Positions 2,471-19,253 of a DNA stretch of 26,005 nucleotides are shown here, piece after piece. Origin of the DNA: Ectocarpus siliculosus (taxonomy: Eukaryota > Sar > Phaeophyceae > Ectocarpales > Ectocarpaceae); the NCBI GenBank assembly GCA_000310025.1, contig FN649749.1, positions 2,122,733 through 2,148,737 on the forward strand, written 5' to 3'. A model generated the notes under the pieces. The model did no database searches, was not told the DNA's origin, and saw only the letters and a program-made list of their open reading frames with translations. The number at the start of each line of letters is the position of its first letter. The first letter of the stretch is position 1. Made by a program: the position numbers and the translations under genes.

Positions 2471-4334
2471 TCAGGGAGGTGGGGGAGAGGGAGGTTTGTC
2501 ACCGACTGCTTCCGCTATCATCCGCGTCCTCACTTCCTGTAGGATATCACCGAGCAGGTTTTGTCCCCGCCATGAGGACGGTGTTCTCGCCGCAGGGTTG
2601 TCGGCACGAAGCCCTATCCCCCACACGCGGTCGTAGGGGCTCGCTTCAGCCAAGAGCTTGTTGTTTCGTGTGTTTTCGGAAATGGGGGGGGGGGGGGGGG
2701 ATCACGATTTGGTGGAGTGAGGGGGCGACGGCGTAGAGGAGGGATGTAGGAATTTGATCTCGATCATGCATAAGGTGATTTTTTCGACCGTTGAGTCCCA
2801 ATCCTACACGACCGGGACAGAGAACGCCATGGCTGTCTTTCGACTAGGGGGGGGGGGATGAATCCGCGGTGGTGTCGTGCTGGAACGCGTTGGAAGGTGT
2901 TGGAAGAGATCGAACCGAGATTGAGCGTGGGATTTGATAGGAAAAGGGCATCACGGCTTTCAAGGCTACCGTCACAGGGCTAAATAAACGTTTTATAAGA
3001 GTCCAAACAACGAAACGTCATTGAACGCTGGTCGGAACGCGAGCCGTACTCATACGTACGCGTACTTCACAGCTTTCGCCAGCAGCTGAACGCCAAGAAA
3101 AAGCACGCGGTGCAGCCACGCACCTTTTCCCCGGTGTCAAGCAGGCGTTGCCCCATCATTTCGTTTTGGGTGAACTTGGCGTAGTTCCCCCGCGCCACAA
3201 TGCGCATTTTGTGCTGGTCCCACACGTTCTGATCATACCCGCTTACGCCGCGGCCCAGGTCCTTGTGCTCCCTGCGAAATCGAGACCCCCGCGAAAAATG
3301 CTCAGCAGGAATTGGCCAGCGGTGTACTTGCTTGCCCCCAAGGCTGCCGAATGCGCGCCACCACTTTGAAGACACCCCTTGGGCGTCCGGTTTGGCAGCG
3401 TAGGTAGCGGTGGAGTTGACAAATATCCTCCTCCAAAAAACAGGAAACGTCTGCATCATGGTATCCTGGTTTGCCTAAAAGTCTAACTCAGTCGAATAGA
3501 AACGGATATGAGCAACCAAGTGTGACTGTATACCTGCCACGTGTGGCTGTATGTATACCTGGGGCTGGGCGTCGCCATGATCTTCTGCCAGCTACTATTG
3601 TCGCCGAAAAGCTTGGCCTTTTCTGCCATCATGTACTGTTCCGCGCAGCTGTACTGCACCTGCACGAAGCATGGAAAAAAGTGCGGTGTTTTTTCAGGGG
3701 AGCAAAGAGGGGATTGGGGCATGATCTCGAACGGGCTAACGTAGACGCCAGCAGCAGTCTTCCAAAAATACTTGCGTAAGGAACACGGCGTCAGCAAGAA
3801 GTCCCAAGAACCCTAGGGGCGCCCAACACAAGCTGTTGAGAAGCACGATGACCACTAGACCACTAGTCAGCGCTGACTAGTGGTCTAGTGGTCATCATGC
3901 TTCTCAACACAAGCTGTGTCCTTCGCCTCGAATGCTGCATACGCGCAGCGTGCCATATGCGCGTAGGGGTACACGATGCACGAGGAAAACATGTCACCAC
4001 AGGCACAAACTACAAAGAGCCAGCGGGCGGGAGACTGGCTCACGTTGTCGACGACGAAAACCGAGGGCGTCCACTGCGAGAACACGGAAGGCGGCTGCCA
4101 AAAAAACAGCAAGTCTGGGGAAACGTACTCCCTCGTCCCGTCGAACCGGGTCGCGGCTGGGGCCGGTGATGATGATGCCTGAGCCTCCCGGCCGTGCGTA
4201 ACACCGCAGTAATCATGGACACGTCCATTTGGTTCTATGAAGCACGGCCTTGAGCAACCGGGCAACTTGCAGGTGGGGGTTGGCGGGTGGGATCGTGTCA
4301 AGCCTAAGAACTGTAGAATACCTTGGAGGATCAT
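2471..4334 (-). CDS. NADAR (YbiA-like) domain protein with N-terminal Cys/His motif
   Basis: Four exons read on the minus strand: 4334-4044, 3659-3559, 3271-3124 and 2656-2471. They join with matching phases (0, 2, 0) to give 241 residues with no internal stop; all introns have GT..AG ends. The first exon holds CKLPGC...HDYCGVTH (about residues 22-47; spacing C-X4-C-X15-C-X3-H), a probable zinc-binding motif, then enters the NADAR domain at LLFFWQPPSVFSQW. NADAR signatures follow in order: CAEQYMMAEKAKLFGD, KDLGRGV, KFTQNEMMGQRLLDTG, then ASPYDRVWGIGL and WRGQNLLGDILQEVR. The conserved Glu and Asp/Trp positions of the family are present. Known NADAR/YbiA proteins are N-glycosidases acting on ADP-ribose-linked bases or damaged riboflavin intermediates. 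The substrate here is inferred only. The ATG at 4334 is the first in the exon; an extra upstream exon is possible. Confidence 0.86.
3836..3907. mobile_element. 72-bp foldback (MITE-like) element
   Basis: Two 36-base arms (3836-3871 and 3872-3907) are reverse complements with one mismatch and no spacer, so the whole element is one hairpin. The ends read TTGAGAAGC...GCTTCTCAA. It is flanked directly by the 9-base repeat CACAAGCTG at 3827-3835 and 3908-3916, which looks like a target-site duplication. A 9-base duplication is typical of Mutator-like elements, so this may be a minimal non-autonomous member; that assignment is inference. It lies in the intron between the first and second exons of the NADAR gene and leaves the coding exons untouched. 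Confidence 0.75.
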
Positions 4335-9159: not shown

Positions 9160-9332
9160 CGGGCGTTAAAACTCATCTCTGCCAATTTACTCACTAATTT
9201 ATACCCGCAGGGGTGATGTCCCTATATGCTGTCTGGGAAATCGTAGACATACAGGTACTTTCTGACGCTATGAATTCATTACTAAATAATCTGTCTCAGA
9301 CTCTATGATAGAGATGGATTCGTTGTGTCATA
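8731..9332. other. Prefoldin 5' region (intron 1 and/or promoter)
   Basis: This is the upstream side of the first confident prefoldin exon, reaching to the TTAA at the left end of the transposon. It should hold the missing first exon, unless that exon lies beyond the transposon. The only phase-compatible candidate I found is the 11-base exon at 9149-9159. A CTG run sits at about 9080-9091. No other gene is visible. Confidence 0.5.
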
Positions 9333-9349
9333 TTAACCCTTACGTGACT
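9333..9349 (+). repeat. Left TTAA target site and 13-bp terminal inverted repeat
   Basis: TTAA at 9333-9336 is followed by CCCTTACGTGACT at 9337-9349. The reverse complement of the right end gives CCCTTTCGTGACT, one mismatch. A short subterminal stem, CCCGA-A-TCGGG, follows at 9355-9365. Confidence 0.82.
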
Positions 9350-9524
9350 ACACCCCCGAATCGGGCATGTTAGCAGGCACGATAACTCTTATATGCGACA
9401 ACTTTCGAACCGAATTGAGCTGTGGATACCTGCGTCGACGACGGCTCGACGGTACGACTAGACCGCTCGAAAAGAAACAAAGTAACGACCGGGGACAGAA
9501 ACAGCACGTCCCCTATACAGAAAA

Positions 9525-9794
9525 TTGAAAGCCTGGGAGTTGCAATGCTCCGCAGCACCCTGCATCCCGCGCTGCTGCTGTGCTGCTGTGGACCTCAGTC
9601 CAGCACGCAGAAACGCCATAATGATGCTGTTTTTCCTCCTGCTTGTTGCGATTTTTCGCACGAGCGCTATGGACGGGGTTCCTGTGTATCACGTTCGCAA
9701 GGAACAGGAGCTAGCTCCCCAGCCGGCTGCGTTGGGCCAACGGGTACAGCAGCACATCGATGGATCTGCGTCGCGCATCATTTGCAGCACATAA
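9525..9794 (+). other. Upstream open frame in phase with the OTU exon, ended by TAA
   Basis: The frame open before the TAA at 9792-9794 is the same frame as the OTU exon, which starts at the ATG 21 bases later. Its ATG at 9621 starts a hydrophobic stretch (MMLFFLLLVAIF) resembling a signal peptide or membrane anchor, followed by a plausible soluble segment. It could be an upstream ORF, a former N-terminal part of the OTU protein cut off by a stop, or chance. No domain is recognised. Confidence 0.3.
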
Positions 9795-9815
9795 TTGACA
9801 AGAGGTGGGAGGGTT

Positions 9816-12800
9816 ATGGTCTTGCCCGACCGCGCTGGTGTGTATACCGTAAAGCCGGATGGCCACTGCGGGTTTAGTGCGATGTCCGCGGGTCTGCAGG
9901 TTTGCCTCGGTAGAACAAGGGCCGCCCCCACCCCAGAGAACATGAGGAGCGTGGTCGCCCGTCGAGCCACGGAACATGTTCTTGGCGCATCCGGTGTTGA
10001 GGACTTGACAGCTGTACTCTCACCAGACCAGCTTGGGCGGGCCCGGAGTGTGCGTATACCGGATGTTTTAGGAGCTGCCGTGGAAGAAATGACGGCGCCG
10101 GAGGATAAGACGGTCGGTTGGTTTCGCGAGAAAGCCCAGCTAAGTGCAACAACAAAATGGATTGACGTGACCTGGTTCTCTTTTCTGGCGTCGGAGTACG
10201 GGGTGAACATCATGTTGTGGGAGCCAAGCCCCACGTACGGCACAGTTCAGCCGTACTCAGCAGCCCTCACGGCAGGCATGTTCTTGTTCGAGAAAAAAGA
10301 CAAAATGGACGAGGAGGGGGATCGCTGGGTGCATCTGCTCTATCGGAAACACGACGATCCGTGGGCAGCGCGCGAGGGTGTAGGTGAGGCAGGCCATAAA
10401 CAGCACAACCACTTCGACCGTCTGCAGCTTGGACTCAACGTACATACTTCCTTCATCGATGTCGTCAGAGTTGCAAAGGAGAAAGCGCTAGGAATGGCGG
10501 CGCCGGTGCCGTCGGCGAGCGCCACGGCCGGGAAGAAAGCGCCAGGGTCCGCAAAGGTGGACGGAGAAGAGGTGGACGATCCCGAGTTCAGCATGAGACC
10601 AAGCGGCAGCAACAGCAACAACAGCAGCAGCAGCAGCCGGCAAGCGGAGGGAAAGGCTGCAGCGGGAAAGAAAAGCAAGGCGAAGATCGGGAGTAAGGTC
10701 GGGGTGAAGCGACCAACCGAGAGGCAGCCAGGGGACAGCAAGAGGCACAAGGCGGGGGGTGCACCGGGGAAGCAGCGCAAGGCGGTTGGTGTGCCGGGGA
10801 AGCGCAAGGCGGGGGGTGCACCAGGGGAGGGGAGGGGTGCCGCAAAGAAATGCAAGAGTACGCCGACGGGTAGGAGGAAATCGGTGAAGAGCAACGGCCA
10901 AGTAGACGAAGCCAACTATGATTCCGACGGCAGCATCGGGGGGGGGGACCACGAGCGAACCCAGGGCTCCTTCGCTAGCATGTCGCAGAACGACAAGAAG
11001 GTGGTGGCCGCCATGAAGAAGATCCAGGAGCTCAAGTACAGGCGGGCGTACTTGCTGAGCAACAAGAGGAGGGCGCGGGGTCTAAAGGTGGGTTTGTGTT
11101 CGTGTAGACTTTTCTCTTGGCATTTTCCAGGCGAATAGGCGGACCTAAGAGAAGACGACGATTTATGGTGGTGCAAAAGTTGAGTCCGATAAATAGTGCG
11201 AATCAATACTGCTGTAGCAGTTTCTTACGTTTTTTTTTTCGCTTGGAATACCGAGTAGAGAGTGCCCTATCAACGCTGAACAAACGCGTGTCTAGGTAGG
11301 CACTTTGTTTCGCCTCGTGTGGTCGCTAGTCTCTACCAAAAATAATCTTAGAAGTGTTGGTAAAAAGCACCTGGTTGCTTGCATGATCATGTTGACGCCT
11401 CCGTGCCTGGCTCCTGTTGCTCAACACGGGTGTGGTTTCCAATGTTGGCAGGGGGGCAACGAATGTCGAGTTCACGATTCGGAGTATGTAAATGCATGTG
11501 CGTGACCTGAACACCCTACTGGCCCTGTATGGTGTTACTTTTGATCGCCGTGTCAGTTTCATGTGAATCTCTCGCTCGCTCGATTCGTAGGTGTTAGTGA
11601 CACCGTCGCCTCGTACGACTTTATTTTTTTTCGGATGATTGAACACAACACGGCAGGGTATGAATTGACACACCTGCCGCTCTGTTTCCGCTGTTTGCCG
11701 ACGACGTGCTCAACCCAGCTCAAGGCCATACGCGACAGGGAGAAGGAGAGGCTCAAGAAAGCGGCAGAAAAGGAAAAAAAAAAACAGCTTCGGCCGCGGC
11801 AGGAGGTGGAGGAGGAGGAGCGACAAGAGAGAGAGGAGCTAGAGAAGCAGCAGCAGCAGGAGCAGGAGGAGTTGAAAGCTGAGGCGGAGGAGTACCCGGA
11901 GGTGGCGTGGACCGACCGCGGCATTCCTGACTTTGCGGGAACGACGGACCACAAGAAGAGAACCCGGCGGCAAGCGGTCAGCGCTGCTTCGCTGTCGGCG
12001 TCCGCGCGATCGAAGTTGCCCTCTCTCGATACCTTCATGGGCGGCCGCGACGAGAACGGAGAGTTCCCGCTGAGTGGTTTGATGAAGACGTGCTTCAACA
12101 TGATGTTCCCCGACAAGGCAGTAGATCTTTTCGTGCAAAAGGTGAGCATTGGTGTTTTCGTGTGGTCGCATTCCTTATTAAGTTGCACTCGAACAACTCA
12201 CTAGGGGGGTTGCACGCAAGTAAGAGACCGAGCCGTTATGCGTCGGACTTGAAAGTAGTTCCGCGGGAAGGGGGGGAGGGGGGGGGGCGGGATGAATTGT
12301 ATGCCCTTTGTTGGTGTTTACACTGCATGATGTCGTCTGCATGCCTTGGTCGCTTAATCATACTGGCCGAATGTAGATCACAGCTCATCAAGATTGTCAA
12401 ACACACGGGGGTTTATGCGGTGTTCATGCATACTTCCCTCCTGACGTGCTACGTACCAGCGTATCGTGCATGGGGTGGTTTGCAAGGGCGGATGCAATAC
12501 CGCGGAATGTACTCCGAGTAGAGAAGCACCCTCCCCCCCCCCTATCCAGCGCGCGGGATCCCTGTTATGTATGTTGTAATTTGATTACCGATATCCACCC
12601 GACCAACCCAACAATTGAAAGCGGGTACTAGGTAGATGCCTGAGAACACAGTCTGTTGTGGCCCCTTGCGGTATTGCTTACGTTCCAAGACACCCGCGGA
12701 AGGCGTATGCGGATTAATTTAATCAAACATGTCTGTGCTGCCACGGCTTGCATCAACAATCATTGTGTATATATACGACACCTCGGCGCGACCTCTGGGG

Positions 12801-15688
12801 CGAATATGCTAATCTTCGCTCCGTCTTGTTGTCCCTGACCTCTTCCGCGCGAAACGTGATACTTTTCCAGACCAACAAGTACGTGAACCTTTGCACCACA
12901 CCACCACCCCCCGGAGCTACGGAGAAGCGCAAGGAGCATCAGATGAAGAAGACGAGAACTCTAGGCAGGGTCACCCTGCCGGAACCCGCATTCGAGCGCA
13001 AGCACATCTACGGCATGCTGGGCATCACGATCACGATGGGGCTCACCAAGAAAACGCGCATGAGGAAGCACTGGAGTAGATCGTTGCACGACGACTATCC
13101 TCTAGTGAGGGCGTGCATGCCGCGTGACTTGTTCGAGCTGTTGTACTGCCGTTTCATCCACTGCTCGGACGGCAACGCTCCTCCTCGATTGTTGGACGAG
13201 GACAACACCCCTAACCCGGACTTCGATTCGAAGTGGCACATCAGGTGAGTTTTACCCGTCGGAGACTTCGAGCGTTCTGACTGTTGGACCACGCTCCTCC
13301 ATTTTTTCATGTGGTGAAATAAAACGGCCTCCAAGCCGGCAAGTACCCTAGAATCCAAATCCAAAGGGTTCATGTCGTTGTACCTGTCGTTGCCCTACAC
13401 CACCCGCCCTCCCCGTGGAATACTACACGTGACCACTACAGTAGCGTACAGTTGTACACCACCCGCCCTCCCCGTGGAATACTACACGTGACCACTACAG
13501 TAGCGTACGGTTGGGATGATCATAGCTACGGACTAGCGTGGTTGGTGTGTGTAATCAATAGGCGAGCATTCGTATGTCCGTTCGTGTCCCACGAATGTTC
13601 TACAACAGATTAACCAACGCCACACCTCCGTGCTAATCTTGACGTCGCTTCACCGGCAGAGAGCTCGAAGACATCTTGAACACCGCGTGGACGGAAAACA
13701 TGGACTTCAACCAGTGGCTGTGCTACGACGAGCAGATGGTGAAGACTGTGTCGAGGTACGCGCACTTCCTCATGAGACACCAGCCCAAGAAGCCCATCAC
13801 CCACGGTACGCGGTTTGTGTTTCGTGTTGTATGGACGATTCCTGCCGACTGTGTGTTTTCCTTGTGACGGCCTTGCGGTGTGAGGGCTCGGCGGCTGGGG
13901 ACATGGGCGAAGACCTTGTATAGTATTCGGTTTTTAAGGGCCACCATGTGGTGGAGTTGTCATTTTTGCTTTGTGGAGTTGACCCCCCCCCCCTCTCCCT
14001 CTACTGGAAAAATAGGAGCAGGAACATTTGGCGTTTAGGTCACATGAAGAAATCATGCCCGTGGGCATAATCCAAAGCTCGATTGCTACACAGAGCTCGG
14101 CGGTGCCGAAAATGGCGGAGCTGGAACCGTCAATGACTGTCCACGAGTTTCAAGCGGCAAACTCGAATAGAGTGCAAACGGGCACGATTGACTGCTGCGC
14201 CGCCTTATTAATTCGCTCCACCATTTTTNNNNNNNNNNNNNNNNNNNNNNNNNNNNNNNNNNNNNNNNNNNNNNNNNNNNNNNNNNNNNNNNNNNNNNNN
14301 NNNNNNNNNNNNNNNNNNNNNNNNNNNNGCTCGACGCCTGCAAGGATTTCGGTGACAAAATCGACGGCTCTGGCGTGCACATCGCAATGGACAACTACTT
14401 CACAAGCCCGACACTGTTCGAGTGTCTTGCGGGCCACGACATCTTCGCGGTGGGTACGTGCCGGGTTAACCGAACCGCTGGCGCGATCCCTTTCTTGCAG
14501 AGCCTCGATCGCATCCCCGTCAAGCGGGGAGACATGCACTTTGCCCGCGCCGGCAATGTCGCATTCGTGCAGTGGCTCGACTCGAAGGATATCATCCTGT
14601 GCAGCACCATCCACCTCGCGCAACCTCGCGCCGCCATCGGCCAGCCCAAGAAGGAAGACGACGACGGCGGCGACGACCATTTCGCACCTCTACCTTACAG
14701 GTGACCTTTTTTGTTGTTGTTGACCAGATTCATGTTTTTATTTCTGCGTCTTCATGTCGGATGCCTCGCTCGAGTAGCATGTCGGTCAAACTGGTTCGTG
14801 CAAAGGTTGATGGAGTTCAAAGTTTGGTGTTGCCAAAATGCAGCGGCTCGGGTTCATGCCTTTAGTATTCGGTTCGTCACACAGGCTGTTCTCACCGACC
14901 GGGAACGTGCTTGGGGCTTGAGCATTGTAGTGTTGACAGGGGCTGATGCTACGCCGGGGTAAAAATAGGTTGCTACGTCCGACGACCTCCATCCAGTTCG
15001 TCGTCGCCGCAGCCGCAAGTGTGGTGCCTGACCCATGTGTTCCGCCTGCCCCCCGCCTGCCTGCCCCTTTTCGTGCGTGTCCAGCCTGCGCAAAGCTGGG
15101 CAGAAGGGGAAACCCATGGAGCTACAGCAGCCGTGGATGCGTAAGGATTACGTGGCCAACATGGGGGGAGTAGATACGGCCGACCAACAGAATGGTTCCC
15201 ACGCCCATGACCACAAGGCGTGCACGAACTACTGGCGGCGAGTGATGGAGGCCAAGATTGAGCAGACGTTCACCAACATTTTCGTGATGTTCAAGGCTTT
15301 GGTAGCCTTCTGGGACGGTGAAGCGAAGGAGAGGCTCGAGAGAGGAGACCTAGACCTTGAGTCGTCGATGGAGTTGGAGGGAGTGGTGAAGGAGCTCCGC
15401 AGGTTGGCCAATCTTGAGAGGTCGGACTGGGACGAACAGATGTCGACGGAGCTCATGGGGAGGTGCGGTGTTGGTAGCCTCAACAAGGGGGGGAGACAGG
15501 TCAAAGATACGGAACCCCCGAAGGACGTTTGGGGGAGCGTTCACATTAAGACAAAACGCAAGTGCATGTACCCCGGATGCAAGAAAACGACAAGAAAAGG
15601 GTGTGCCTGCGAGGCGTTCTGCGGTGCAGGGCGGGAGGGGGGCGGGGGGGTTTTGATGTGCAAGGGATGCTTCGAGAACCCGGCGTAG
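9816..15688 (+). CDS. OTU-domain/piggyBac transposase fusion protein (interrupted by assembly gap)
   Basis: Visible exons: 9816-11087, 11719-12141, 12871-13244, 13660-13805, a partial exon from the gap to 14700, and 15085-15688. Junction phases agree at every join outside the gap. Exon 1 encodes an OTU-like cysteine protease: DGHCGF with Asp15 and Cys18, a WIDVTWFSFLASEYGVNIMLW segment, and HNHFDRL with His199. A Ser/Lys/Arg-rich tail with AGGAPGK-type repeats follows. Exon 2 is a charged coiled coil ending FPDKAVDLFVQK. Later exons match DDE_Tnp_1_7: TNKYVN, YGMLGITITMGL, MPRDLFELLYCRFIHCSD, then acidic residues in CYDEQ (13727), MDNYFTS (14390), WLDSKDIILCST (14579) and GGVDTADQ (15173). 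The C-terminus holds a Cys-rich motif (CMYPGC...CKGCF). About 1,060 residues are visible. The segment after the first catalytic Asp is missing, probably in the gap. The role is cut-and-paste transposition at TTAA; OTU deubiquitinase activity is inferred. Confidence 0.82.
11088..11718 (+). other. Intron joining OTU exon to coiled-coil/transposase exon
   Basis: The donor is CTAAAG/GTGGGT and the acceptor is CAACCCAG/CTCAAG after a pyrimidine-rich stretch. Both sides are phase 0, so a 631-base intron would join the OTU exon to the next exon without a frame change. The charged helix at the end of exon 1 continues smoothly into that of exon 2. This is the key junction for the fusion claim. Confidence 0.65.
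13396..13513. repeat. 59-bp tandem duplication in a transposase intron
   Basis: Two head-to-tail copies of 59 bases (13396-13454 and 13455-13513) begin TACACCACCCGCC and end GTAGCGTACRGTTG. They differ at one position. The repeat lies wholly within the intron 13245-13659, so it does not alter the reading frame. Confidence 0.92.
13806..14228. other. Non-coding or foreign sequence before the assembly gap
   Basis: After the donor at 13806 the expected piggyBac segment (GIK...GY...VY.G) is not found before the gap. The stretch has an open plus-strand frame from 14028 running into the gap, but it does not resemble transposase. It is probably intron, or a small insertion or misjoin next to the gap. 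Confidence 0.5.
14229..14328. other. Assembly gap (100 N)
   Basis: Exactly 100 N, the usual placeholder for a gap of unknown size. It removes the start of the exon that continues at 14329 and probably the segment that follows the first catalytic Asp of the transposase. Confidence 0.98.
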
Positions 15689-17036
15689 GCACGCTAGGGC
15701 CGCACGGGCTGAACGGGAGGCCTCGAAGTTCGGAAAAAGGACACGGAAGGATATGAACTGGTGCTCGTGACCGTTTTTTGTTGTTGTTGCGAGTGTTTCG
15801 GGCGGAGGAAACAGGGATCGACTCGTGTAAGGGTCCCTTGACATATTTTTTGGCAGGCAGACTGATCGTAGCGCATCATCTTCCCGTCCGTCATGAAAAT
15901 GTTTTACTCCGTCGTTTACCTGTTGTGTCTTCCCGATAGCAGTGGTATTATAGTGTGGGGCGTTTGTGTTGTGTACTTGTTTACCACCCATCTGTATCAT
16001 GTAGCGGTCGAAGTACGATCGTTTTCATCCTTGCGAGATAAAGTGCAAGTTACTGAATCACAATATTGTAGGTCTTTTATTCCGCGCTATTTCTGAAAGC
16101 GTGTGTCTTTAGAGTCTGAAGCGTCCTCCGGGATATGCGGTGAAGAGTGCTTGTCGGGCAACTGTTGGTGGGCGCCGGCGGTGTCACCTGCGGTAGTGAG
16201 TTTTTAGCCCCCCCCCCTTTAGCCCCCATTCGCTTGTGACTACTGTCAGTGTTGTTGCGATTAGCCACGGCTCGTGTATCGCTCGTTGTGTGTCGTTTTT
16301 AACCCGAAACCTATGTGGCAAGAGCCTTAGGTTTGGCGTCGGTATCCCGTGCTTTGGTCGACAGACATGTTCGCACGTAGACAAGGAATGGAGTACGAAG
16401 TGTACAAGGTTTGCAGATACCAAGGTTTGCAGATAAAATCGAAAGAAGTCTTCGGCATCTAGATAAACAACGTTTTCCTGGCACTTTAGTTTTTTCACTG
16501 CGTGCGGTGTAGTCTAGTCCTTTCGTGCGACAACGTCATACACACCACGTGCCGGTGGTGCTCACCAGTAGTTCAGAGACCGCAAACGGCATCGGAATCC
16601 AACCGTGTGCCAATGACAGACATTCCGGAGACCTTCATGCGATCAAGTCGTGAATACTTGCAAGATCATTTGTTCCATGTTTATTCCATTTCTTCATCTC
16701 GAAACCAAGGCGCTGATCTCTGCGAAAATGCAATACACATCTCCCGGCGAGTGCGCCTGCAACATGCGACGAAACATACGGAATTTTCAGATCACACCAT
16801 TGCACCATCGGTTGTTCCACCGAGTTGTGCCTTGCAGCACTCTTTCTCCAAATAACCCCAGCGAATTGAATGACAAACCCAGCGAACTCAAAGTCATGCG
16901 GGGGCACGACGCCCTGCAAACTAGCCAAGCGCAAACCTTGAGGTTCTGCTCGAAACTCTTGTAAGTACGAAACCCTCTCCACCCCCCCACCCCACCCCTC
17001 AGGCTCCATGATCAGCCTAAAACACGCGCTCGAGAA
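15689..17036. other. Region between convergent transposon genes
   Basis: This lies between the stop codon of the transposase and the stop codon of the minus-strand accessory gene. It must contain both 3' ends. Open frames such as minus strand 16635-17009 show no domain. I see no RNA gene or long repeat. Confidence 0.5.
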
Positions 17037-18289
17037 TCACGACAATGCCTCCGCAATGGCCGCTGGTATGGCTTCGTCTCCCGGCCACACCGCGCGGCAC
17101 GCCTGCGTGAAGCAGTCCCTCCTCGTGATTTGAACGCCACGACCCCTCGCGTTGAGGCGGGTGCTCACGTCGAACGAAGCCTGCACGTTGCGGGGGAAAA
17201 AACGACGACGTAGGCTTGTTTTTTTAGAGCGTGCACTCCAGTCTTTCGTGGGAAAATGGAGAGCCAACAAACGTTACGTGGCATGCAGTATCTTGTGAGA
17301 GACAGACGTTCACGCAATGGGGCGGCGCGTGCGTCTTTTTCTCCGTTCGGACTACTAACCGCCCGTTCGGATTACAAAACCTAACTTCGGACAAGACAGA
17401 AAATTATGCTCGGCCTCCCCAGTACATCGTTACCCCTACTGCTGTCTAATGCGGGGAGTACAAAGCTGCGGGCTGCCAGCCTATTCGTACGAAATGGGAG
17501 AGTCTCCAACCTAACTGATACGGAAGATAACACCATATCTGTCTCAAAAGGGGAGTCGACGCGCTGGGCGCCGCTTGTCTTTCCAGAGCATTTGCTGAGC
17601 ATTGCGGAGGTTCATAGGGATAGGGTTGCTGTAAACGCGTCTTTCAGGTCTCTCATCCCTCTTTCCTGTCTACTTCGTGTGGTGATATGATCTGTCTGGC
17701 AGCTGCATTGATCCGCAGGCTCGAAAAACACACGCACGTTAGTCCAGGTTGAAGTTTGTGGGCCTAGTGTACTGTTGTAGCACTCTTACAAGCCACCATG
17801 TCAAACAAAGCTGAACGTGGAGCACACCTATAATACACGAGGTGCAACGCGCACAGCAGGTGCACAACCGATCTGGGTCAGCAGCCCATCATTTGTGGGG
17901 TTGCCAAATATCAATTGTACTATACTTACTTGATTCCTCAGACGCTTCGCTGTGACCTGCCCCCCCGAGCTCCTCTCGGCTGCCTTTGAGAAATCTACAT
18001 CCCCGATCCAGCGGGAGTGGTGGTACCCGCAGAGTCCGGGGTGCTGCTGAGCTGCGGTCCTCCTTGCTGCCAGGTCCCTTATGTCTGGGAGGGGCTGGGG
18101 CTCGTTGTCCCCGTGGCAGCAGAACCGCTTCCCAACCGCCCTGGCTGCAGCAGATGTCGCCTCGGGCAGGAGCTGGGGTGTTGTGTCCGCGATGAGAACC
18201 AGCTCGTCCCACACAACTAGGGGAGCATTCACTGGGTCCCACTCAGCCGCTTTGGCCTCCCAGAACTGAGCGATGTCCTCTGGGTCCAT
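17037..18289 (-). CDS. Transposon-borne accessory protein of unknown function
   Basis: Two minus-strand exons, 18289-17930 and 17180-17037, join in phase 0 to give 167 residues. The start ATG lies in a strong context (ACCACCATGG) after a CAG-rich leader. The donor is AATCAA/GTAAGT and the acceptor GTGCAG/GCTTCG, in a 749-base intron. Exon 1 begins MDPEDIAQFWEAKAAEWDP. It has an acidic and hydrophobic N-terminal half, then Cys and His residues (RFCCHGD at about 55-61, LCGYHH at about 86-91) that could bind metal. Exon 2 begins ASFDVSTRLNARGRG and ends EALS. I recognise no family. It lies inside the transposon ends and converges on the transposase gene. It could be a regulator or an end-binding partner, a captured host gene, or a mispredicted frame. 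A further internal exon cannot be excluded. Confidence 0.5.
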
Positions 18290-19236
18290 GGTGGTGATGT
18301 TGGTACTGCTGTACTGCTGTTGTTGCTGCTGTTGTGCTGGCAGGCTGTGGCGGAGTGACAAAGTGTCAAAAAGAGACACCCGCCCCCGTGCCTTCGCGTT
18401 TTTGAGAGGGTTTTCGTGACTACAGGCACGATAGGAGGCATGATAAAACCTGTCTTTATCTGGTACGATAAAGCATGCTCTCGCTGTTGACTTGTGTGCC
18501 TTCTTCCTTGCCTTCGGAATGTGGTTGCAGAACTGAAGGCCAAGCTTACGAGGCCTCTCCCCGAGTTCTCCTGCGCGCGTGTGTGTTCGAGTGTATTCCT
18601 TGTCCGTCTTCAACCAACCGCCACCACAAGGCATAGTTTATCTCTCGCGCGGCTCGTGCTTGCTGCTGCTGCTGCGGCGGGCTGCTGCTGCTGGTGCTGG
18701 TGCTTTTTCATTTCGTTTCGCATGCATGCATCCAACAAACAAACCGCGTGCGTGTGTGCTTCTTGTCTCCGCTGGATATATCACCCAACCAAGTGGCATT
18801 GGAGGCGGTGCCATGCCTTGCGCCAGTGTGCTGCATCGGCGGCGGGGTAGAACTGCTGTGCATGCGATGTATCTCTACTGCTGCTGCTGTATCCATGTAG
18901 ACTATCACCATGTAATCGTGTTTGGGGTAAAGAAATACGGCGCCCTCTCCTCTCTCTCTCCTCCGGTTTCCGACAGCACCTACATACAGCAGTACAGCAG
19001 TCAGTGTAGTTATCGGTCACTCATCACATTCTTCACGTGAGGGTTACGCTGCTGTTGGGCACTAAACCTTTGTGGCACCATGGGGTGCGTGCGGTTGACC
19101 CATGTGGGAACCTGTTGGTGCGCAAACAAACGTGCAAAAGTTCAAGTGCGGGTGTCGTGTGTGTGTGTCTCATGACTCATCGGTCTATTCGGTCCCGGCA
19201 GAACAAAAAAAAACGCGGAAGATCCAGAAAGAACCC
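18290..19236. other. Right subterminal region of the transposon
   Basis: This holds the upstream (promoter) side of the accessory gene and the right arm of the transposon. It contains CTG/CAG-rich runs (18300-18340 and 18660-18705) and one internal copy of the terminal motif at 19034-19047. Open plus-strand frames here translate to repeats of cysteine, alanine and leucine and are not credible genes. Confidence 0.5.
19034..19047 (-). repeat. Internal copy of the transposon end motif
   Basis: CACGTGAGGGTTAC matches the reverse complement of the left end, CACGTAAGGGTTAA, at 12 of 14 positions. It lies about 0.2 kb inside the right end in the same orientation as the right terminus. It may be a subterminal transposase-binding repeat. 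Confidence 0.5.
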
Positions 19237-19253
19237 AGTCACGAAAGGGTTAA
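19237..19253 (-). repeat. Right 13-bp terminal inverted repeat and TTAA target site
   Basis: AGTCACGAAAGGG at 19237-19249 is followed by TTAA at 19250-19253. It mirrors the left end with one mismatch in 13. Confidence 0.8.

Follow-up and report, generated by a model that had tools for sequence, protein, structure and literature searches.

The window, by which we mean the whole stretch of 26,005 nucleotides that was analysed (G000:C24:2122733-2148737), contains a piggyBac element at 9333-19253 that runs from a TTAA at 9333-9336 to a TTAA at 19250-19253, the two being copies of a target-site duplication to which no strand applies. Directly inside these lie the terminal inverted repeats, CCCTTACGTGACT on the forward strand at 9337-9349 and, on the reverse strand at 19237-19249, a partner that reads CCCTTTCGTGACT inward. 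The termini can be written as TTAA plus CCCTTACGTGACT / AGTCACGAAAGGG, a 13-bp inverted repeat with one mismatch that adjoins the TTAA. An earlier note on this DNA had given the feature an extent of 9816-15688; that interval does lie inside one TTAA-bounded element, but the true element is wider. A search of the 189-Mb genome (492 contigs) with both element ends recovered 29 left and 28 right ends, and the near-uniformity of the left ends (99-100% identity in 26 of the 29, 72-75% in the other three) suggests that the element family has been recently active. TTAA is found at both ends in nine of 18 copies and TTAC at both ends in one; the ends differ in two (C66 and C12b), the left end alone is readable in five (four TTAA, one TTAT) and neither end in one.

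The insertion site of the window copy is a short, high-copy dispersed repeat (about 9202-9332) that ends in TTAAGAA and an A-rich stretch, and the ∼130 bases 5' of the left TTAA match at least 40 other places at 88-95% among the matches listed. The corresponding empty site with a single TTAA, searched as a 24-base pattern without the element, occurs 434 + 465 = 899 times genome-wide with up to two mismatches, compared with 0 occurrences of the reversed control. The C53 copy has apparently inserted at the same TTAA in another copy of that dispersed repeat. Given the TTAA-flanked ends and the uninterrupted repeat copies that serve as empty sites, the boundaries and the TTAA-type insertion are secure. 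Outside the element the window also carries a near-perfect palindrome at 3834-3909, whose 38-nt arms are 97% complementary and are joined without a spacer.

The larger gene of the element lies on the forward strand and is modelled as six exons separated by five GT-AG introns. Exon 1, visible at 9816-11087, encodes an OTU-like domain (about 9816-10490), then a Lys/Arg-rich linker and a tail that reads NYDSDGSIGGG...RRARGLK; exon 2 (11719-12141) encodes a Glu/Lys/Gln-rich segment followed by the start of the region common to other piggyBac families here. Transposase sequence continues through exon 3 (12871-13244), in which the DDE_Tnp_1_7 match begins, exon 4 (13660-13805), the visible part of exon 5 (14329-14700) with the AMDNYFTS region, and exon 6 (15085-15688) with GGVDTADQ, a C-terminal Cys-rich region that may be a zinc domain, and the stop codon TAG. 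The start of exon 5 (ICDVAGYC...) is hidden in the window copy by an assembly gap of 100 N at 14229-14328 and is readable in the C57, C53, C14 and C25b copies. Intron 3 contains a 59-bp tandem duplication (13396-13513, 98% identity).

Profile matches bear out the earlier proposal that the later exons encode a piggyBac transposase. In the window, DDE_Tnp_1_7 matches 12871-13245 (3.8e-5), 14330-14701 (5e-12) and 15032-15685 (0.017), the last of these being weaker than the cut-off when taken alone. In the sister copy at C14 (L017) four exons join in phase via GT-AG introns to give 545 residues, which match PF13843 (DDE_Tnp_1_7) at 4.8e-30 (105.5 bits against a cut-off of 22.4, over 41-409) and the solved piggyBat 9c0f at 3.2e-7. 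All three catalytic Asp motifs, ICDVAGYC, AMDNYFTS and GGVDTADQ, are present in sister copies of the same family (family A); the Asp of ICDVAGYC, which falls in the N gap of the window copy, we take to be D268 of piggyBac. At this position, presumably the first catalytic Asp of piggyBac, exon 5 of families D and E (L009-L014) has CC where families A, B and C have CD, and most of these copies keep the nearby DGG. Several sister copies are damaged at other places by their own frameshifts or stop codons.

The ATG at 9816 is probably not the native start of the gene. Two in-frame ATGs lie upstream, at 9621 and 9624, and begin the sequence MMLFFLLLVAIFRTSAM. Among 11 full-length exon-1 matches the open frame spans 504-565 codons in eight and 447 codons in three (the window, C21 and C25), and because 8 of the 11 have the longer frame, the native start is probably the ATG at 9621 or 9624, which would make 9621-9815 on the forward strand an N-terminal coding extension with the hydrophobic segment MMLFFLLLVAIFRTSAM. 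In the window copy the long form is broken by an in-frame TAA at 9792-9794, where C53, C57 and C25b read through. The hydrophobic N-terminal segment FFLLLVAIFRTSAM (9621-9671) precedes the OTU-like domain and is similar in families A, B and C, with differences by codon position of 6, 3 and 8 between A and C and of 3, 0 and 2 between A and B. A hydrophobic N-terminus is odd for a nuclear transposase. The layout, in which the domain is N-terminal and falls after this segment and before a long basic linker, could also be that of a cis-acting protease that cuts the fusion protein during maturation instead of removing ubiquitin; we regard this as very unlikely, as none of the precedents considered here is of this kind.

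A second gene, ORF2, occupies the reverse strand of the element. Its exon 1 (17930-18289, Met at 18289) and exon 2 (17037-17180, stop at 17037-17039) join in phase 0 to give 167 codons. Each of the families A-E, including family D, which lacks the OTU-like domain, has loci with a homologue beyond the 3' end of the transposase. These homologues are convergent to the transposase except at C472, where pieces point in both directions, and none is listed close to C7 or C183. They fall inside the apparent right ends of the elements in families C (L070), D (L069 and L075) and E (L071 and L072). Across A, C, D and E, identity to the A protein is 33-47%, and C57, H59, HPGLCG at 83-88, H91, C143 and C148 are invariant. 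ORF2 matched nothing in Pfam and gave one insignificant match in a PDB search. On viral contigs, tblastn confirmed none of 35 pattern-matched stretches for ORF2, nor any of 99 for transposase exon 5 or of 20 and 29 for the OTU-like domain. We regard the ORF2 product as a probable accessory protein of the lineage, and its occurrence across five families suggests that a piggyBac element need not be limited to a single gene. At L077 (C33:1323500-1327800) two family-E-like ORF2 copies lie in inverted orientation ∼2 kb apart.

As the earlier note had recognised, the OTU-like exon, which is open and contains DGHC and HNHFDRL, lies on the same strand as the transposase exons and within the same TTAA-bounded inverted-repeat element. 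The proposed junction at intron 1 (11088-11718, forward strand) stands in the DNA, where GT-AG ends and phase 0 join exon 1 to exon 2; the splicing itself we infer. The fusion is real at the DNA level, and exons 1-6 would be spliced into one protein. The same stretch could alternatively hold two tandem genes, an OTU-like gene whose end falls within exon 1 or shortly beyond it, and a transposase gene of its own that starts downstream, for example at the ATG at 11635. Exon 1 alone could indeed yield a stand-alone protein from its 447-codon stop-to-stop frame, and a genome-wide search for an intron-less copy with the exon 1/2 junction (up to three mismatches) gave 0 matches, as did its control. 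Against tandem genes, exon 2 continues in phase 0, and the arrangement, with its shared exon layout, is seen again in families A, B, C and E. Family D elements, moreover, have close to their start a frame homologous to the exon-1 tail, and an AAG/GT donor follows in the inspected copies of families A-E. Taken together, these observations make separate genes quite unlikely.

The family-wide comparison that bears on a fused gene covers at least 29 PF13843 matches, which by our own tally fall at 25 genome loci. At 18 of these 25 the transposase is preceded, on its own strand, by a protease-like exon 1, several of these copies being decayed; at two more (C474 and C234) the end of exon 1 alone remains, and at the five loci of family D (C137, C91, C50, C16:1849k and C7) no exon-1 OTU-like match is listed. 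In transposase identity to A the families fall in the order B (73-77%), C (62-67%), D (42-47%) and E (42% for L013; 40% over 120 positions for L055). Identity in the OTU-like domain is 63-64% between A and B, 34-37% between A and C and 19% between A and E, so that the order of divergence is the same in domain and transposase. Screened with a profile built from the domains of A and C, a set of 3908 frames yields those of family E at 3.1e-6, 7.4e-5 and 0.0016 and lists no family D frame up to an E-value of 1. Because the OTU-like domain is present in four families that have diverged from one another (A, B, C and E), its association with the transposase is not chance, and on the same ground the reading of the OTU exon as an independent insertion was rejected.

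PiggyBac relatives without an OTU exon, which the earlier note had named as a finding that would count against the fusion, do exist in the form of family D, but these elements keep a homologous exon-1 tail and splice donor, so that they favour the fusion and the domain is merely not universal. Of the five family D loci, the complete left part is readable for two, C50 and C16:1849k (L010 and L011), that of C91 being partly N. L010 and L011 start matching each other at a TTAACCCTT end, and an OTU-like frame is absent between this end and exon 2. When the final ∼60 exon-1 residues of families A, B and C are made into a profile, it recovers the D copies L010 (0.0014), L011 (3.1e-4) and L012 (2.7e-4) over 48 positions, and E copies are not among its matches. 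The AAG/GT donor is present at the corresponding end of exon 1 in the copies of all five families inspected, and in the E copy L055 an uninterrupted frame of 616 codons runs from the OTU-like domain through to it. Since its tail recurs in OTU-less family D, exon 1 belongs with the transposase gene and is most simply read as its N-terminal exon, in which the OTU-like domain would precede a segment shared with OTU-less relatives. Family D and two partial copies lack the domain, so that at least one lineage can do without it; the transposase tree is unrooted, and therefore a single gain with D outside and a loss in D both fit.

We considered whether the N-terminal domain is an OTU. The DGHC motif (9858-9869, forward strand) would form the catalytic Cys loop, and the NHF motif (10407-10415, forward strand) would supply the catalytic His. 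D15, G16 and C18 are invariant in all five rows of alignment A1 and all six of A2, and NHF is kept in four and five of these rows, respectively, row L003 stopping short of the motif; NHF is also present in the B copies L006 and L008. A match of exon 1 to OTU families, for which the earlier note had proposed a search, was not obtained in a profile scan of A, C and E members. PF02338 did not match, no Pfam OTU model did so up to a maximum E-value of 10 (HMMER filters drop most matches above 0.1), and NCBIfam gave no match for the OTU-like domain of A or E; because no curated model matches, we call the domain OTU-like and not PF02338. Searching the PDB with hmmsearch gave 12 matches with A1 and 10 with A2, each individually insignificant (E 0.33-0.98). 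They include wMelOTU (two sequences, with A1 only) and one 'ubiquitin thioesterase', the remainder being fragments of viral L proteins or polymerases of 171-219 residues, many representing a single protein in different versions, which we take to be viral OTU domains. A phmmer search of the PDB with the E domain found nothing.

We also compared profiles with ten OTU genes of this genome that had been found by PF02338, of which seven are over the cut-off (four were rescanned, and all four match). The comparison gave a score of 26.7 (P 0.0027, probability 11%) over 41 columns at the Cys loop, compared with 18.1 for the best of 100 column-shuffled controls and 12.7 for the reversed control; there was no convincing alignment outside the Cys loop, and the alternative alignments were at the level of noise. 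Of the 3908 frames, the one that the A and C profile ranks highest outside the family is the L066 OTU frame (E 0.5). A different fold, or an OTU domain that has lost catalysis and serves in binding, would account for the lack of a curated family match, the insignificant PDB E-values and a single-sequence AlphaFold2 model of the window domain that is unusable (pLDDT 30). The D-G-x-C loop and N-H-F, kept while identity falls to about 19-29%, and the PDB matches, two named OTU, one named ubiquitin thioesterase and the rest taken to be viral OTU domains, as well as the OTU frame of L066 despite its E-value, argue the other way; we consider this alternative improbable. OTU identity is the likely assignment, drawn from the motif, weak profile evidence and the conserved, presumed catalytic Cys and His, and in our estimate the domain very probably has a true OTU fold.

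Selection on the OTU-like domain was estimated within and between families. Pairs within families gave dN/dS values of 0.58-0.75 (C), 0.62 (B) and 0.32-0.69 (E). Between families the values were 0.557 and 0.702 for A with the B copies L006 and L008, both of which are decayed, and 0.37-0.48 for B-C pairs; between A and C synonymous sites are saturated, the one finite pair giving 0.231. These ratios indicate that the domain evolves mostly near neutrality after insertion, with selection visible over longer branches only. For transposase exon 5 we obtained 0.396 (A-B), 0.13 (A-C), 0.90 (one C pair) and 0.18 (one D pair), and dN between A and B is 0.27 in the OTU-like domain against 0.09 in the transposase core. 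The OTU-like domain thus appears constrained over long branches, though less than the core, and its faster evolution is compatible with adaptation to host factors without being proof of it. The weak constraint between close copies, together with the existence of family D, is also what one would expect of a captured host OTU gene carried as a passenger in one element lineage with no role in transposition. We think this unlikely, given that the domain is found in four families including the distant E with its presumed catalytic residues kept, and that the OTU-like frames are open in A and in the C copy L001 across saturated synonymous divergence.

The reading that we prefer, with a probability of roughly 60%, is that of a two-gene piggyBac transposon whose first gene encodes a transposase with an N-terminal OTU-like cysteine protease that acts on ubiquitin, the two being fused by splicing. 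The product of exons 1-6, spliced into a single protein of ∼1,100 residues, would comprise the OTU-like domain, a basic linker, the Glu/Lys/Gln-rich segment, the DDE core and the C-terminal Cys-rich region. The OTU-like domain would strip ubiquitin or a ubiquitin-like tag and, because it is tethered to the transposase, could have as its targets the transposase molecule or proteins at excision and insertion sites, such as chromatin or repair proteins. As a result the transposase might outlive proteasomal turnover or host repression. This suggests that the element interferes with the host protein-tagging system in order to move, and a role of the protease against turnover or silencing is plausible. 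A fuller version, to which we give somewhat less than even odds, is a two-gene piggyBac lineage that pairs the tethered N-terminal OTU deubiquitinase with ORF2 as a Cys/His-motif partner; ubiquitin editing would stabilise the transposase or clear marks from donor or target chromatin, and the OTU part would evolve faster as a host antagonist.

The element shares with the piggyBac superfamily the TTAA duplication, a short terminal inverted repeat starting CCC, the DDE_Tnp_1_7 core, AMDNYF and GGVDTADQ and a Cys-rich C-terminus, and differs from it, piggyBat being the solved relative, in its N-terminal OTU-like domain, five introns, length of ∼10 kb and second gene on the opposite strand. Protease domains of the ubiquitin or SUMO pathway are reported to have joined transposon proteins several times, in Ginger1, Helitron and Mutator (PMC2836005, PMC9741609). 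Ginger1 elements encode cut-and-paste DDE transposases with a C-terminal OTU or Ulp1 protease domain, and the authors propose that the protease activates DNA repair during or after transposition (PMC2836005). The combination of a DDE transposase and an OTU-type protease in one protein is common to both, but Ginger1 is of the Gypsy-integrase type with the protease C-terminal, whereas here the transposase is of the piggyBac type and the domain N-terminal (PMC2836005); membership of Ginger1 was ruled out by the PF13843 and piggyBat matches. Helitron and Helentron proteins carry OTU or herpes-tegument-like deubiquitinase domains, for which protection of transposition proteins from degradation has been proposed; activity had been measured for the tegument-like and not the OTU domains, transposon OTU domains being reported as untested (PMC9741609). 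They resemble the present case as transposon proteins with a deubiquitinase-type domain, but theirs are rolling-circle RepHel proteins with unrelated transposition machinery (PMC9741609).

Teratorn is, like the present element, a piggyBac element with extra genes, but it is a 180-kb fusion of piggyBac with a herpesvirus, and the word OTU is absent from the main texts of both Teratorn papers (PMC5601938, PMC10175614). Brown-algal piggyBac elements are already known, a study of Ectocarpus transposable elements having four PiggyBac families in its table and no use of the word OTU in its main text (PMC12477816). Among the open-access titles and abstract starts listed, there was no description of a piggyBac-OTU fusion. 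If true, the piggyBac version would make the reason for the joining of proteases to transposons testable, because the superfamily has a solved transposase (piggyBat) and this genome holds a sister family that naturally lacks the OTU-like domain. This genome also contains a multi-copy set of OTU-type proteins (L058-L066), several of which have Pro-rich or Asn/Ser-rich leaders (GDGACLLRCIARR...HYRTL), and which is possibly another mobile family.
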